This document shows, piece by piece, positions 10,442-17,635 of a DNA stretch of 64,000 nt. The first letter of the stretch is position 1. Each line of letters begins with the position of its first letter. Position numbers and translations under genes: made by a program. This DNA comes from a virus. The stretch is from positions 1 to 64,000 of IMG/VR virus record IMGVR_UViG_3300028597_000009, one strand, 5' to 3'. The notes below the pieces were generated by a model. It was not told where the DNA came from, did no database searches, and saw only the letters and a list, made by a program, of their open reading frames with translations.

Positions 10442-12061
10442 ATGAAACCCACGAACCTTACGTTACTGGACTTTAACAAGATTGTACCGGGCGTTTATAA
10501 ACCCGTTACGTCCACTGACGCGTTTGAAGGCATGACCCAGAACCTCAACGACGAGGGGCTGTATTCCATCGAGATCTTTGGTAAGTTGGGCAGCAAAGAG
10601 CGCGACGAAACCGAAGCGTACATTGATACCAAGTTGGATATTTTCAACCCGACGTACTTCGGGGCACTGGCTCAAGTTAAGGGTCTCTACCTCGGAATTC
10701 TCAAAGGGACGGAATACGCGGTATGGGATCCGGAGACCAAGGATTTCATAAAATCCAACCTGCTGGAAGGCGAGACTGGGTTCAGTTTCTTTATTAAGCA
10801 CTTTAACAAGTTGACACCGTCTACCACCGATTCCTATAAACGGAAACAACGGGTAGCCTTGATCAGCCGTTTCAAGCCAGTGGCGCTGGCGCCTAAGGTA
10901 TTGGTGCCGCCTGCTGGCCTGCGCGACATCGAGTTCCAGCCTAACGGGGTTCCTGTTGAGCCTGAGATCACCGAACTCTACCGCAAGCTGTTGTTCCGTA
11001 CTCGCGTAGTATCGTTGAGCAGCAACGGTGAAGATTCTGAGAACCCTCTGTACGATACTGTGCGTTGGGGTTTGCAGAACTCTTATAACGAAATCGACCA
11101 GTACATCTTCAGCCTGCTGGACGGCAAGGGAGGTCTGATGCAACGCCGGGTTTCTACTCGTGGCGTGGTGTCTGGTACTCGTAACGTTATTACCGCGCGT
11201 AAGGTCTCCAGACCGAATCTGTTCCAGACCAACGGGGTTGACCCTAACACGACCGACATCGGGCTGTATCAGGCTCTCCTGAACTTCCAGTACGTCTGTA
11301 TCCATGCACTCCTCACTCGCTACCTGGAAAACATCTTCACTCCGGGTTCACAAAGTGTGAAGTTGGTGAATACTAAAACGCTGGAGTATGAATATGTTGA
11401 GGTGGCGCCTGCTGTCGTCGAGAAATGGTCAACGGCTACGGGCCTGACCAAACTCTTCAACGGGTTCGGTAACAGCCGTCTGCGTTCCAAGCCTATTATG
11501 ATCAGCGGCCACTATCTGGCACTGGTTTACGATGATGGCACTGACGTTTGTGTCCTCAACGACATCAACGACCTGCCAGAAGGTAAAGACAAGAAACTGG
11601 TTACTCCTATCACGTATATGGAGTTGTTCTACCTGTCCTGTCACAAGACCATCATGGAACAAGTGACACAGCAGACTCGTTACCCCGTAATTGGTATCGG
11701 TTCGATTGTACCGGCTAAGGTTAACCTTCTGACTATTGAAGGCGCCAGCACTCGGAACATTCGTACCACTGATTGGGATATCAAGGAAACCTGCACTCGC
11801 TACCCGCACAAGACTGACAGCCCTGATTACTTCGACGCCATGTCGGTTGACCCTACTCGTGAAGCCGGTTACGACTCCGACCACGACGGCGACCAACTGA
11901 ACAGCAACAGCGTCTGCGGTGAAGACAGCAAGGCCCAAGTGCATGACCTGCTGGGCAAGCGCGAATACTACATCAGTGGTAGCGGTCGTTTCCTGTATGA
12001 CCCTGTCAACGAACCCATTTTGTTTATGCTGAAGGCCGCCACCAGCGGTATGGAGGAATAA
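10442..12061 (+). CDS. Virion RNA polymerase beta-prime subunit, N-terminal catalytic part (phiKZ gp180-like)
   Basis: A 539-residue protein ending with the active-site signature of multisubunit RNA polymerases: D480-H-D482-G-D484, matching the DxDGD loop of bacterial beta-prime that holds the catalytic magnesium. In phiKZ the virion RNAP is made of split beta and beta-prime chains (gp80, gp149, gp178, gp180) packaged in the capsid and injected to read early promoters. The next gene is the beta subunit, and the giant virion gene lies on the other side, as around phiKZ gp180. The beta-prime C-terminal part is not in this window. A second, different beta-prime N-terminal subunit is at 58329. 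Tyr replaces the usual Asn-Ala before the first Asp. Confidence 0.88.
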   Translation: MKPTNLTLLDFNKIVPGVYKPVTSTDAFEGMTQNLNDEGLYSIEIFGKLGSKERDETEAYIDTKLDIFNPTYFGALAQVKGLYLGILKGTEYAVWDPETKDFIKSNLLEGETGFSFFIKHFNKLTPSTTDSYKRKQRVALISRFKPVALAPKVLVPPAGLRDIEFQPNGVPVEPEITELYRKLLFRTRVVSLSSNGEDSENPLYDTVRWGLQNSYNEIDQYIFSLLDGKGGLMQRRVSTRGVVSGTRNVITARKVSRPNLFQTNGVDPNTTDIGLYQALLNFQYVCIHALLTRYLENIFTPGSQSVKLVNTKTLEYEYVEVAPAVVEKWSTATGLTKLFNGFGNSRLRSKPIMISGHYLALVYDDGTDVCVLNDINDLPEGKDKKLVTPITYMELFYLSCHKTIMEQVTQQTRYPVIGIGSIVPAKVNLLTIEGASTRNIRTTDWDIKETCTRYPHKTDSPDYFDAMSVDPTREAGYDSDHDGDQLNSNSVCGEDSKAQVHDLLGKREYYISGSGRFLYDPVNEPILFMLKAATSGMEE

Positions 12062-12065
12062 CGGT

Positions 12066-15000
12066 ATGCAGCAACCTATTGAACTGAGAGGCTTCTTGCA
12101 GTCTGTAGCCGGGTTGGAGTGGTTAGACCAACCCTTGGGCGTTGCTTGCCCTCTGGCTGCTGTGACTGGCAGTGAAGCATTGGCTCAGTACGCAATGTTC
12201 TACAAAGCGTTTGTACAACGCAAGAAGCAAGAGTTGGTATCGCCTAACTTCATTGGCATCGGTGAGATCATTCTCCCACGGGCTTCGTTGGTTCATTACT
12301 TCCCGGCTAACCCTCTGGAAGTAGGTCCTACCACTTCTGAAGCATTCATCAGTAACTATCCTGATGATGTGTTCGTCGAGTTCCCTACACACTTCACTCC
12401 GGTAATAGGTAGTGGGCGTGCGGTGGCCATTGAAGTCCGTAAGGTTATCCAGGGATATCGTGCGAGTCATTACACGTATAACTGGACCAAGGACATCGGT
12501 ACCGTTTACAATAAAGACAAAGTGTTGATCGTCAAGACTTACGGTCTGATCGACAAGATGTGGGTTGCTCGTCCTTCGATGTTCATTAACTTCGAGCGAC
12601 ACTACAACCGTTATTCGATGCTGATGGATAGCATCAACGCAGAAGCTGTTAAGGGTAAGCGTAAGCAGTTCTTCCGTATTGACCTGCCGTTGCACCTGCC
12701 TAGCTTCAGTGAACTGTTGATCGATTACGATCACTACATCGAGAGCTTTAAAGACGGCATTCCACATGCCAGTAACAAAACCGTTCGCTTGACCAAAGCA
12801 GAAAGCTCGTATTGGTTGATGGACTGGATGGCCTACCTCTTCGGGGATACCGAGTACAGCTTGTTCGGCAAGTTGACTCCTGAAGCCATCGACAGCATGC
12901 ACCTGATCTTTGCTTTCAACAGTCGTTCCTTGGTGCTGCATTTGGGTACGCTGAAAGGCTGGTTGGACGAACTGCTGGAGAGCAAGTACGCACCAAAGGA
13001 AGGTAAAGGTCCCGAGAGTCATCGTGCAGGGCATCCAAAGCGTCTGAACGTGTCTAAGCGGGTTTACCTCGCATTGTTGAACCTCACTCGTGGTGGCATT
13101 AGTGAAGGAGAAGTTGTAAAGGAGGAGGAAAATGTCAGAGAAGGAGAAGAGGCCGAAGCGTCTGGCTCTGTGGCTGCAGCAGCGAAGGGATCTGAGAAAG
13201 GAAAAGGACGAGCATCCAGCGAAGGAGGAGGGGGCAAAGTTTCTGGCAAGACTGACACTACCCCAACTGTTTCTGGTGGTGGCTCTATCCTTGATGTTCT
13301 CGATCCTGTTCAAAGAGTGGACAGCGGAGATGCTGAAGGGACCGGACAAGAGGGAGACGCAAGCGATCCTGAGAGCGTTGAGGAATGGACATCCCATGTA
13401 GATGACACTCTACTGGAACAAGAGTCCACTGTTACCGAAACCTCTACCGCCAAGGATCCGTTCCCTAAGCTGGAGAGTGGTATCTCCGCAGCTCTTGAAG
13501 AACGTGCGCGTGATGGCGTCCTGACGGTTGCTGAGCAACAGTTCTTCATGCGCAAGGGTACCCAAGTCTACAAGATCAAGATGGAGAACGGTCAGACGCT
13601 GGCTGAGTTCATTGAGATTGACGACAAGGAACTGAAGACCCTCAGCAGTGACGCCAAGATCGAAGGTAACTTCCCCACTATTCTCGATGAGAGTATGTTG
13701 GTGAGTCGTGCCAAGGTATTGAAGCAGGGCTATGTGGATAAGTTCCTCCACAAAGATACTGCTCGTATGGTTGTCAGTATTCAGAACGCCGGCTTCGCTC
13801 TCAACGATTTCAAACACACCATTGTTTCCGGTGTTGAAGGTTCCTATGACGTCTATGGGTTCCAGGTTCATCATGTTGATGGCGAACAATCGACTCACCA
13901 GATCCGCATGCCTCGCGTGGGCAAGGATGGTGCGTTCATGGTCGACGGCGTTAAGACCCACCTCCAACTGCAACGGATGGAGCTGGTAGTTCGCAAGATT
14001 GGTAAAGACAAGGTTGCACTGACCACCCACTACGACCGTAAGCTGATGATCTCTCGCAGCAAGAAGGTAGTAGACGACCTAGGTCTGTGGATGGTCAAGC
14101 AAGTCCTCCTGAAGGCCTCTGTGGCTGCGAACGGGATTACCTTGAGCCGTGGTAGCGGTTACAACAAAGACTTGGTCAGTCCGCGTATCTACAGCCTCTT
14201 TGCCACCAAGTTCCAATGGATCGCCAAAGGTGATATTACTTTGGACTTCCGCATCGACAAGTTGCTGGAAGAGTACCCTCAGTTCAAGAAGTACACCAAG
14301 CAGGACATGTTCCTTATTGGCGTGAAGGACAAGAAACCGTTGACCATCGACAGTTACGGTAACTTGTACCTAGACGAGAAAGAGTTCAACACCATTGAAG
14401 GTCTGCTGGATATCCATGGCGCCAAGACTCCTAGCGAGTACGCCGTGATCAACATCAGCGGTTACCCGTTCCCGATGGGTGTTGTGCTCTGCTACTACTT
14501 CGGTATTGATGAGCTGTTAAAGGTTATCAAAGCGGAAACTCGCTCGGTGCCTATGGGTACCCGTCCGAAGTTGGGGCCTGACGAATATTCCATCCAGTTT
14601 AACGACGAGTATCTGATCTTCAACCGTCGTGAGAAGCTGACCACCTTGATCTTCGGTGGCATGCCTAAGTTGACCAACATCAGTAACTTCAGCCGAAGTG
14701 ACCTGAACAACAAAGGCATTTGGGGTCCTTTGATGGGGGATCCGAAAGTCCGTCCACAACAGTTCTTGGAAATGAAGAACCTCTACGACATGTTTATCGA
14801 CCCGATCTCCAAAGATCAGTTGAAGCGCATGGGGTACTCCACTTCCTTCCACCACCTGCTGATTGACGCTACGAAGCTGCTGGAGACCGATTACACTCGA
14901 CACGGTGTAGAGATCGAGGAACAACGGGTCGTTGGCTACGAGCGCTTTGCGGGGCACATGTACCGTGAGCTGGTGAGCTCTGTTCGTAAGTTCCGCAGTA

Positions 15001-16505
15001 AGGGCAAGGGTCGTAAGCAGAAACTCGACATTAACCCTGAAGCGGTGATTGTGAACATCCTCAAGGACACCTCGGTGAACTTGGTAGAGGAAGTTAACCC
15101 GATTCACCAATGTAAGGATCAGGAAGAGCTGACCTTCGGTGGTACGGGTGGTCGTAGTGGTATCACCGTCGTTAAGCGTGACCGTGTTCAGTTGGACAGT
15201 TACCGGGGCATTGTGTCTGAGGCGAACAAGGACAGCGGGCAAGTAGGTTTCGTTACCTACCTGACTTCTGACCCTCGCATCGAAGACTACCGGGGCAACA
15301 TCAACCTCAAGGAGAAACCTTCCTTGACGGGTATTAACTCGGTAACGGGTAACTTGGCTTTTGGTATGTCTAAGGACGACCCTAAGCGGGGGATGTTTAC
15401 CAGCACACAGGCTAGCCAAGCGGTCAGCGCACAGAACTACAGCCCGAACATCAGTCGTACCGGTTATGACAACATCATCGCACACCGTACTTCCGAGTTG
15501 TACAGTAAGGTGGCGAGCGATGACGGTAAGGTGACTCAGGTTACCGACGACATGCTGGAAGTGACGTATGCGGATGGGACTGTCGACAAATACCCTCTGG
15601 GTCTGGAGATCGGTGAGGCAAGCGGTGAGTACCACCGACACACTCGTATTACCGATATGAAAGTAGGCGACAAGTTCAAGAAGGGTGATGTCCTCGGCTT
15701 CGACAAGCAGTGGTTTACTCGGGATATCTTCTGCCCAGGTCAAGTTGCTTGGAACGCAGGTCGTATGGTTCGCATTGCGTTGGTAGAAGACCAAGATACC
15801 TACGAAGACTCCATCGCTATCTCGAAAGAGATCATGGAAGAATCGGTTACTCCTTTCATCAAGATTAAACGCTTTGCTGTTGATGTCGAGCAAGTCGTTA
15901 ACTTCCGGGTGAAAGTAGGGGATCAAATCGACTACGACGCGATTTTATGCGAAATCGAAGACGACCACCAAGTCGGTGGCGGAGGTGATAATGAATTGGC
16001 CAGTGATGTTAACCGGCTAGGCATTAAGCAAGTCCGTTCCACTCACCACGGTGAAGTCGTTCAAATCGATGTAACCTACAACTCTCCACTGGAGAAGATG
16101 TCCGAAGGTGTGCGCAAGTTCATTGTGGCTAACGACAAGCTGCGGAAACGCAAAGCCTCTATCGATAGCACCAAGTCGGAAACCGGTAGCGTGAGTAACA
16201 ACCTCAACGTGAACAAACCGGTACTGGCTCCGGGCAAAGCACTCTTCGAGATCTACGTGGAGTCGATGGACCCAAGCACCATCTCCGACAAATACGTCAT
16301 CGGCAACCAGATGAAGGGTACCGTCGGTAGTGTGATCAAGAAGGCTTTGATGACACGCGACGGGCGCAAGATCGACGTGAAGGCTAGCTTTAAAGGTATG
16401 TTTAACCGGATGGTTCTTAGCCTTCGGGATAAACTGGCGTCTAACGAAGTGACTATCCAGATCACTCGGAAGTTCATCGCTATTTACAGGGGTACCAATA
16501 AATGA
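12066..16505 (+). CDS. Virion RNA polymerase beta subunit (phiKZ gp178-like)
   Basis: A 1479-residue protein starting five bases after the beta-prime stop, behind GGAGG. The C-terminal third matches the bacterial beta core: a VEDQDTYEDSIAIS segment like the beta NFEDSI region, and KYVIGNQMK with Lys1409 and Lys1417 at the eight-residue spacing of the two conserved active-site lysines (E. coli beta K1065 and K1073). Residues about 330-490 form a Glu/Gly/Ser-rich, probably disordered insert between two folded halves. That insert is where another reading frame encodes a membrane protein (13132-13401). The protein should pair with the beta-prime chain encoded upstream in the injected early polymerase. 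Its stop overlaps the endolysin start as ATGA, so translation of the two is probably coupled. Confidence 0.87.
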   Translation: MQQPIELRGFLQSVAGLEWLDQPLGVACPLAAVTGSEALAQYAMFYKAFVQRKKQELVSPNFIGIGEIILPRASLVHYFPANPLEVGPTTSEAFISNYPDDVFVEFPTHFTPVIGSGRAVAIEVRKVIQGYRASHYTYNWTKDIGTVYNKDKVLIVKTYGLIDKMWVARPSMFINFERHYNRYSMLMDSINAEAVKGKRKQFFRIDLPLHLPSFSELLIDYDHYIESFKDGIPHASNKTVRLTKAESSYWLMDWMAYLFGDTEYSLFGKLTPEAIDSMHLIFAFNSRSLVLHLGTLKGWLDELLESKYAPKEGKGPESHRAGHPKRLNVSKRVYLALLNLTRGGISEGEVVKEEENVREGEEAEASGSVAAAAKGSEKGKGRASSEGGGGKVSGKTDTTPTVSGGGSILDVLDPVQRVDSGDAEGTGQEGDASDPESVEEWTSHVDDTLLEQESTVTETSTAKDPFPKLESGISAALEERARDGVLTVAEQQFFMRKGTQVYKIKMENGQTLAEFIEIDDKELKTLSSDAKIEGNFPTILDESMLVSRAKVLKQGYVDKFLHKDTARMVVSIQNAGFALNDFKHTIVSGVEGSYDVYGFQVHHVDGEQSTHQIRMPRVGKDGAFMVDGVKTHLQLQRMELVVRKIGKDKVALTTHYDRKLMISRSKKVVDDLGLWMVKQVLLKASVAANGITLSRGSGYNKDLVSPRIYSLFATKFQWIAKGDITLDFRIDKLLEEYPQFKKYTKQDMFLIGVKDKKPLTIDSYGNLYLDEKEFNTIEGLLDIHGAKTPSEYAVINISGYPFPMGVVLCYYFGIDELLKVIKAETRSVPMGTRPKLGPDEYSIQFNDEYLIFNRREKLTTLIFGGMPKLTNISNFSRSDLNNKGIWGPLMGDPKVRPQQFLEMKNLYDMFIDPISKDQLKRMGYSTSFHHLLIDATKLLETDYTRHGVEIEEQRVVGYERFAGHMYRELVSSVRKFRSKGKGRKQKLDINPEAVIVNILKDTSVNLVEEVNPIHQCKDQEELTFGGTGGRSGITVVKRDRVQLDSYRGIVSEANKDSGQVGFVTYLTSDPRIEDYRGNINLKEKPSLTGINSVTGNLAFGMSKDDPKRGMFTSTQASQAVSAQNYSPNISRTGYDNIIAHRTSELYSKVASDDGKVTQVTDDMLEVTYADGTVDKYPLGLEIGEASGEYHRHTRITDMKVGDKFKKGDVLGFDKQWFTRDIFCPGQVAWNAGRMVRIALVEDQDTYEDSIAISKEIMEESVTPFIKIKRFAVDVEQVVNFRVKVGDQIDYDAILCEIEDDHQVGGGGDNELASDVNRLGIKQVRSTHHGEVVQIDVTYNSPLEKMSEGVRKFIVANDKLRKRKASIDSTKSETGSVSNNLNVNKPVLAPGKALFEIYVESMDPSTISDKYVIGNQMKGTVGSVIKKALMTRDGRKIDVKASFKGMFNRMVLSLRDKLASNEVTIQITRKFIAIYRGTNK
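13132..13401 (+). CDS. Nested single-pass membrane protein ORF inside the RNAP beta gene, 89 aa
   Basis: An ATG in another frame follows AAGGAGG by six bases, which is among the strongest ribosome binding sites in the window. The product is 89 residues: a very charged N-terminus (1-37, Lys/Arg/Glu), one hydrophobic helix at about 41-60, and a charged C-terminal tail of about 29 residues ending at TAG. It covers beta codons 356-445, exactly the low-complexity Glu/Gly/Ser/Ala insert, as expected if one frame is free to vary. The endolysin gene follows the beta gene, so a holin, antiholin or other lysis role is conceivable, and the topology would fit a single-pass holin. That role is inference. 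It could also be a chance ORF, but the ribosome binding site and clean transmembrane helix argue against this. Confidence 0.6.
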   Translation: MSEKEKRPKRLALWLQQRRDLRKEKDEHPAKEEGAKFLARLTLPQLFLVVALSLMFSILFKEWTAEMLKGPDKRETQAILRALRNGHPM

Positions 16506-17431
16506 ACTACAGTACCGTCAACGGTGTTAAAGACATCCAAGTCCTGTTAAAGGAAGCGGCTGTCTACACTGGCAAGATTGACGGTGTCTGGGGTACTGGA
16601 ACTCGGGATGCAGTCTTGAAGTTATTTCATGGCTGCCGTCTCCCGACTGCCGGGGGTCAAACGACCCTCGTTTCCATCTCCGCAGGCTCCGACTTCGCTG
16701 GTGCTAAAGATGGCATCATGGGCATTCAGAGCAATCTGAAGTTGTTCCAATTGTACACCGGTGCCGTCGATGGCTTGATGGGTCCCGGTACGTTCAAAGG
16801 TTTCTATGCTGCATTCGTCGCTTATCGTAAAGCGAACAAGCTGCCGGTCTATGACCTCGGCTGGAGCAAGCGGGTGCCGGGCATCTTCACTCAACGCGTC
16901 AAGCAGTGGTGTGATGCCAAGGGTTACTGGGCAAACGCTGCACACGGCCTCATGGGCTGCATGAGCTTCGAGTCCGGTAACACCTTCAGTCCTTCCAAGC
17001 AGAACAACGGTGGGGCCAAGTACTTTGGTCTGATCCAGTTCGGCGATGCGGCTTGCCAAGATCTGGCCAAGTTCCTGAAAGATCCAAGCATCACTCTGGA
17101 AGCTGTTAAGGCTATGTCCCAGATGGATCAGCTGGAGTTGGTCTTCAAGTACTTCGCCATGTGGGAAAGCCGTGGCAAGGTTTACAAGCGCATGGAAGAC
17201 TTCTACCTGACGATCTTCTACCCTGCCGCTGTTGGCAAAGGTCCGGATGAGGTGTTGTTCACCAAGAATTCCGATGTTCCAATCATCGCCAAGTCGTACC
17301 TGCAAAACAACGGGTTCGATCTGGACAAAGATGGCGCCATTACTGTTGGCGAAATCTGTACACGTGTTTCCCAAGCTTACTACGACGGTCTGGATCCGGC
17401 TAACCGGAATATCCTGTCGGTCGCCGCCTAA
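16502..17431 (+). CDS. Endolysin: two peptidoglycan-binding repeats plus SLT-type transglycosylase domain
   Basis: A 309-residue protein. Two peptidoglycan-binding repeats (about 5-48 and 60-105) each carry the DGxxGxxT/R pattern. A lytic transglycosylase-like domain fills the rest, with SFESG placing catalytic Glu at 157 and a YFGLIQFG segment downstream. KZ144 of phiKZ (catalytic Glu115) and EL188 of phage EL (Glu155) have the same modular order, binding domain first. The two-repeat form is like the OBP endolysin. It cleaves host peptidoglycan at lysis. There is no signal peptide, so a membrane protein must let it out. The start codon overlaps the RNAP beta stop (ATGA), tying the enzyme to the late virion operon. 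A possible membrane partner is nested at 13132. Confidence 0.92.
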   Translation: MNYSTVNGVKDIQVLLKEAAVYTGKIDGVWGTGTRDAVLKLFHGCRLPTAGGQTTLVSISAGSDFAGAKDGIMGIQSNLKLFQLYTGAVDGLMGPGTFKGFYAAFVAYRKANKLPVYDLGWSKRVPGIFTQRVKQWCDAKGYWANAAHGLMGCMSFESGNTFSPSKQNNGGAKYFGLIQFGDAACQDLAKFLKDPSITLEAVKAMSQMDQLELVFKYFAMWESRGKVYKRMEDFYLTIFYPAAVGKGPDEVLFTKNSDVPIIAKSYLQNNGFDLDKDGAITVGEICTRVSQAYYDGLDPANRNILSVAA

Positions 17432-17461: not shown

Positions 17462-17635
17462 ATGACTGACAAAGCTTTGATTGACAAAATCATCACTGTG
17501 GCTAACGTCACAGAGTTGGTAAAGAAGACCGTCGCCAAACTGGGCCTGGAATTCATCGCACCCCTGGACGAATCGATCCAGGATGAAAAGATCAGCAAGG
17601 CCATCGTGGCTCGCACTAAAGGGACTTCGAAATGA
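17462..17635 (+). CDS. Small protein, 57 aa
   Basis: A short ORF with ATG at 17462 behind AAAGGAG, ending in TGA that overlaps the next start (ATGA at 17632-17635). The product is mostly helical in composition and lysine-rich, with no motif and no membrane segment. The good ribosome binding site, tight fit and overlap make it a real gene. The role is unknown. It is probably late and translationally coupled to the following virion protein. Confidence 0.75.
   Translation: MTDKALIDKIITVANVTELVKKTVAKLGLEFIAPLDESIQDEKISKAIVARTKGTSK

Follow-up and report, generated by a model that had tools for sequence, protein, structure and literature searches.

Inside the virion RNA polymerase (vRNAP) beta gene of an EL-like jumbo phage we find an overprinted frame, at 13132-13401, that we believe to be a real protein-coding gene for a bitopic membrane protein, with a probability of about 0.9. 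This figure covers the gene, its coding status and the bitopic nature of its product; a role in lysis lies outside it.

The nested frame and its neighbourhood

The window analysed here, 64,000 nucleotides of a 110,530-base virus record (IMG/VR record IMGVR_UViG_3300028597_000009), carries a late gene block, and the features of interest are collected in Table 1. A sequence-only reading of this DNA had described an 89-codon ORF in another frame with AAGGAGG six bases before its ATG, one clear hydrophobic helix, a position on the low-complexity stretch of beta at codons 356-445, and a signal-less endolysin encoded next. This description holds: the coordinates and spacing were reproduced, the helix corresponds to a 19-residue hydropathy peak at residues 41-59, the stretch of beta is an acidic linker rich in Gly, Ser and Glu, and a modular endolysin was found at the place described.

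Table 1. Coordinates in the window of the nested frame, its parts and the genes around it
Feature	Position	Strand	Remarks
Tail-protein gene		-	
RNA polymerase beta subunit fragment	10442..12061	+	phrog_2986; upstream partner of beta
Virion RNA polymerase beta subunit	12066..16505	+	phrog_3148; 1479 codons; host gene of the nested ORF
Shine-Dalgarno-like AAGGAGG	13119..13125	+	ends 6 bases before ATG; within beta Lys-Glu-Glu codons
Beta linker, codons 356-445	13131..13400	+	DNA common to both genes
Overprinted ORF	13132..13401	+	+1 frame of beta; 89 codons plus stop
Putative transmembrane (TM) segment, nested residues 41-59	13252..13308	+	19-residue hydropathy peak; AlphaFold helix 43-68
Predicted C-terminal amphipathic helix, nested residues 71-84	13342..13383	+	conserved P-x-x-x-R-E-x-x-x-I-L-K-x-L-like motif
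Modular endolysin	16502..17431	+	PG_binding_1 and lysozyme-like domain; EL188 homologue; next in operon

Several features of the neighbouring genes deserve mention in their own right. A gene of 57 residues (window 17462-17635; phrog_17945, of unknown function) separates the endolysin from the virion gene that follows, and a small gene occupies this place in nearly all relatives inspected. The endolysins of OBP and AH04 (L028:7331-8317; L040:6354-7340) carry a GH19-type catalytic domain in place of the lysozyme/transglycosylase-like domain of their relatives, while keeping two PG-binding repeats and the gene position. The 642-aa endolysin of the Aeromonas phage AhC3_1 (L097:7275-9200) has an apparent intein-like insert in its catalytic domain, which starts CVDTETEILTTTG, ends VYITGN before C and splits the lysozyme-like region. 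Beta itself is split into two frames at about query residue 1105 in EL-like phages and in Shewanella phage FishSpeaker (L020, L021, L022, L027), where an HNH endonuclease gene follows the gene upstream of the split beta; together these suggest introns or homing-element activity in vRNAP genes.

When the amino acids of the window's beta were held fixed and its codons shuffled synonymously, the nested frame stayed open in 27% of shuffles, and in 6% it was both open and able to encode a TM-grade segment. The beta genes of some relatives also have open +1 frames with a TM segment at other places. Because of both results the ORF is weak evidence in one genome alone and only suggestive there, and the relatives were therefore used as the test.

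Conservation, selection and distribution

IMG/VR and phage records supplied the beta homologues, which were sought at the protein level after a search of phages with the DNA of the beta gene had found nothing. All EL/OBP/pTD1-clade loci that cover the linker have the same +1 frame open at this site. The carriers comprise 28 representative lineages (EL, RisingSun, pTD1, OBP, Miami-like and metagenomic phages), in which the frame runs to about 80-150 codons; over 28 of 28 open frames the summed log10 P(open) is -27.9, a value that is not a strict probability as the lineages are related. Relatives with a broken frame had been named as grounds for refuting the ORF; the clade keeps the frame open and most members keep an SD-like sequence and ATG. 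In most lineages a core of AGGA, GAGG or GGAG precedes the corresponding ATG by 5-9 nt, while the start is unclear in the OBP/Petsuvirus/AH04 group.

The nested protein can be aligned throughout the clade and has a common layout of a basic N-tail, one TM helix, at the end of which stands a conserved Phe/Leu-Ser/Thr, and a C-terminal helix. Far groups of this divergent family share 15-30% identity, and AhC3_1 matches it weakly; a profile built from 21 members scores carriers at E 1e-36 to 7e-5 and gives only noise elsewhere in beta. When 2.3 billion bases of phage DNA were searched by tblastn with divergent members, the family was recovered at the syntenic beta site, where the matched records annotate only the polymerase, or a 'hypothetical protein' in place of the polymerase; the few matches elsewhere, in Caulobacter phages, had E values of 6-7 and were noise. 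Annotation of the nested gene is absent from every public record checked. A search of the genomes for a second copy at another place found none: the weak genome matches in Moabite and in the phage behind L096 are an antisense stretch and the TM segment of a spanin.

As is usual for a gene, variation outside the ORF is concentrated at beta position 3. Inside the ORF it moves to beta position 1, where the +1 frame has its wobble base, and position 3 varies least or almost least. In six close relatives, 48, 29 and 23 columns vary at positions 1, 2 and 3 of 95 codons inside the ORF, against 264, 146 and 799 of 1358 codons outside it (Fisher p 3.6e-13), and three Vibrio phages give 39/24/28 inside and 348/198/908 outside (p 5.7e-7). 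The flip recurs in 10/10 separate sets of relatives, with Fisher p from 7e-20 to 0.013 (1.7e-13, 1e-8, 7e-20, 9e-13, 4e-7, 1e-8, 1e-5, 0.013, 0.011 and 1e-4). When two clades were scanned with 30-codon sliding windows, all of those with more variation at position 1 than at position 3 lay on or beside the ORF. The single difference in the ORF between the window and a near-identical relative (L002) changes T to I in beta and is silent in the +1 frame, and over the shared DNA the +1 translation has a higher BLOSUM score than beta in 173 of 231 pairs.

We regard this substitution pattern as direct evidence of coding, in which the +1 protein is the more constrained of the two. The earlier proposal of an overprinted membrane-protein gene in a tolerant linker is thus borne out by a frame conserved across the clade and by selection in +1, including, as a constraint test on beta had been suggested, conserved beta wobble positions inside the ORF where the +1 wobble varies. 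That there is no gene, and that beta codon bias keeps a chance frame open or an RNA element constrains the stretch, is highly improbable: the frame does stay open in 27% of the window's shuffles, but it is open in all 28 lineages, the codon-periodicity flip specific to +1 coding recurs in ten sets of relatives, and an RNA element is disfavoured because it would not shift variability to the +1 wobble position.

The nested-family TM-bearing +1 frame was found in none of nine betas of other clades, eight from the named phages fnug (phiKZ-like), Psa21, Moabite, Eowyn, pVa-21, SPFM16, Deimos-Minion and Proteus phage 10 and one from the metagenomic phage L096. A low-complexity linker stands at the same beta site in the 8 non-carriers that were aligned. 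In a tree of the rest of beta, one branch with support 100/100 splits the 28 carriers from the 9 non-carriers, which is a single change; the root is not fixed, so the direction of that change rests on inference. On the most economical view the nested gene probably arose by overprinting a single time, in the common ancestor of the EL/OBP/pTD1 clade, within a disordered linker that already existed; loss from the other clades, rather than gain in this one, is possible.

The predicted protein and its possible roles

The nested protein is predicted to cross the inner membrane once. Its N-tail is net positive in 21/21 aligned members, which by the positive-inside rule predicts N-in/C-out. This basicity is partly forced, as GAR codons of the acidic beta linker are read as K or R in +1. 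An AlphaFold model, a weak one at pLDDT 67, places helices at residues 8-27, 32-39, 43-68 (TM) and 71-84, and gave no structural match when compared with viral structures; profile searches of Pfam, PHROGs and PDB with the nested family returned only noise and no match to a known holin or antiholin.

We propose that the protein is most likely made by independent internal initiation, from its SD and ATG, on late beta mRNA, since an SD-like core and ATG occur at the equivalent site in most lineages. The product would be an inner-membrane protein of 80-100 residues: judging from charge, its strongly basic N-tail would lie in the cytoplasm and, beyond the one TM helix, a short helical C-tail in the periplasm. 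As the substitution periodicity shows, selection over the shared DNA is dominated by the +1 protein, with the beta linker carried as a tolerant spacer. Since it would be produced alongside the late virion proteins and immediately ahead of the endolysin, the nested protein most likely has its task at the inner membrane in late infection. On the strength of operon context, lysis control, whether as holin partner, antiholin or endolysin-release helper, is our leading guess, and a tentative one. That this is a de novo membrane family, born once in the EL-like vRNAP gene and coupling virion production to lysis timing, is more doubtful; it supposes that RNAP and capsid are made at the membrane and that +1 is now the dominant coding frame of the stretch.

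Any role in lysis must be weighed against the lysis genes found elsewhere in these genomes. In phage EL, gp109 is a two-TM protein of 123 residues (115514-115885) that a spanin pair adjoins on the other strand. A gp109-like family was found in 11/13 other genomes searched, the two without it being a phiKZ-like control and one fragment, and its genes adjoin spanin-like genes in the genomes inspected; no gp109-like gene was found in the window's own 110 kb record, which is a fragment. Deimos-Minion, Proteus phage 10 and, weakly, Moabite also have a gp109-like match, and all three are without the nested gene.

The likely lysis module of EL is unannotated (L101:15514-16631; NC_007623.1 115514-116631): gp109 (phrog_14084) faces the i-spanin gp111, and the o-spanin lipoprotein frame occupies 115947-116396, where the annotated start of gp110 is too short and the real frame begins upstream. 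Homologues of gp109 adjoin spanin-like genes in RisingSun, pTD1, Miami-like and metagenomic relatives, and the two-TM domain occurs twice in tandem in OBP, N1M2, AH04, ZPAH34 and AhC3_1. Both EL and OBP appear in a published survey as phages with two-component spanins of the overlapped type (PMC6139136). Elsewhere, in the 310 kb metagenomic jumbo phage whose record also supplied the L096 beta, an i-spanin-like gene wholly contains, in a different frame, an o-spanin-like frame with a lipobox (L123:797-1513 and 1203-1421).

The sequence-only reading suggested that the nested gene is the missing holin. Such a holin would be class III-like, with one TM helix in N-in/C-out orientation, and would release the signal-less endolysin encoded next. 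The protein is small, predicted to be bitopic and placed in a late operon, the endolysin lies one gene downstream in those carriers whose sequence extends far enough, OBP and AH04 with their different catalytic domain included, and no holin is annotated in the EL regions read. However, given that in the EL-like genomes examined a conserved two-TM protein (gp109 in EL) has an i-spanin and an o-spanin gene next to it, that several phages without the nested gene also show a gp109-like match, that in Agricanvirus (Deimos-Minion) a modular endolysin directly follows beta although the nested gene is absent, and that clades without the nested gene lyse anyway, we consider holin identity rather unlikely; it was downgraded because the gp109/spanin module is present, and the claim of a missing holin is unsupported. 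The gp109-like protein is a more orthodox holin candidate, and the nested protein is not the obvious or only holin. Agricanvirus, with its endolysin alone, likewise led us to reject the idea that the nested gene and an adjacent endolysin always occur together. Spanin identity was also rejected, as the nested protein has no cysteine, hence no lipobox, and only ~30 residues after the TM segment, where an i-spanin has a long periplasmic coiled coil, and EL has separate spanins.

The main rival to lysis control is a membrane anchor for the assembly of the capsid or the virion RNAP. Capsid assembly takes place on the inner membrane in nucleus-forming phages (PMC12908238), and a gene within a virion protein gene would be made in step with that protein and, here, would provide a long basic cytoplasmic tail; phiKZ-type phages, however, also assemble at the membrane and do so without the nested gene, which leaves an anchor a minority prospect.

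A lysis regulator or antiholin that works with the gp109-like protein and the spanins would fit the presence of the nested gene and the gp109/spanin module in the same genomes, and the predicted bitopic N-in/C-out form with a short periplasmic helix is compatible with it. Nevertheless, the gp109-like family is also present where the nested gene is not, and there is no homology to known antiholins, so that this specific role is unlikely. Small bitopic phage membrane proteins often serve superinfection exclusion or host-envelope takeover, and the tails of the nested protein diverge fast, as might be expected of either. We find such a function similarly improbable for a gene that is conserved across the clade, locked into a late structural gene and without a family match beyond noise.

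Relation to known systems and significance

The nested gene has parallels among overprinted genes of other phages. Gene E of phiX174, in the +1 frame of D, is likewise a small membrane protein overprinted in a larger gene of other function, and there too the host frame is the older of the two (PMC8227390). In phiX174 no lysis gene exists besides E, however, whereas the phages with the nested gene also have an endolysin and spanins, and we claim no homology. Lambda Rz/Rz1 is similar in that the embedded gene is in +1 and is often missed by annotation (PMC6139136). In contrast to Rz1, the nested protein lacks a cysteine and lipobox, and its host gene is an RNA polymerase rather than an i-spanin. 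Class III holins of the T4 T type share one TM helix and the N-in/C-out topology predicted here, but T has a large periplasmic domain, while the C-terminal part of the nested protein is ~30 residues long, without sequence match, and pore formation by it is hypothetical. More generally, viral genes overprinted in disordered regions tend to pair a tolerant frame with a new, clade-restricted and more constrained one (PMC8227390); what sets the present case apart within this class is a host gene that is the multisubunit-type virion RNAP of jumbo phages and a family without known relatives.

The nested gene runs throughout a well-studied jumbo-phage clade (EL, OBP, RisingSun, pTD1, Miami-like) and is missing from the records checked; the proteomics paper on RisingSun lysates reports annotated gene products (PMC6034870). 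Because the gene is present throughout the clade, knock-out, tagging or truncation of the vRNAP beta linker there would hit two genes. As a case of overprinting in a disordered linker the locus is both clean and deep, and its new frame is now the more constrained. Finally, the nested protein is a concrete candidate for membrane functions that are poorly described in nucleus-forming phages, such as lysis control and membrane-bound assembly.
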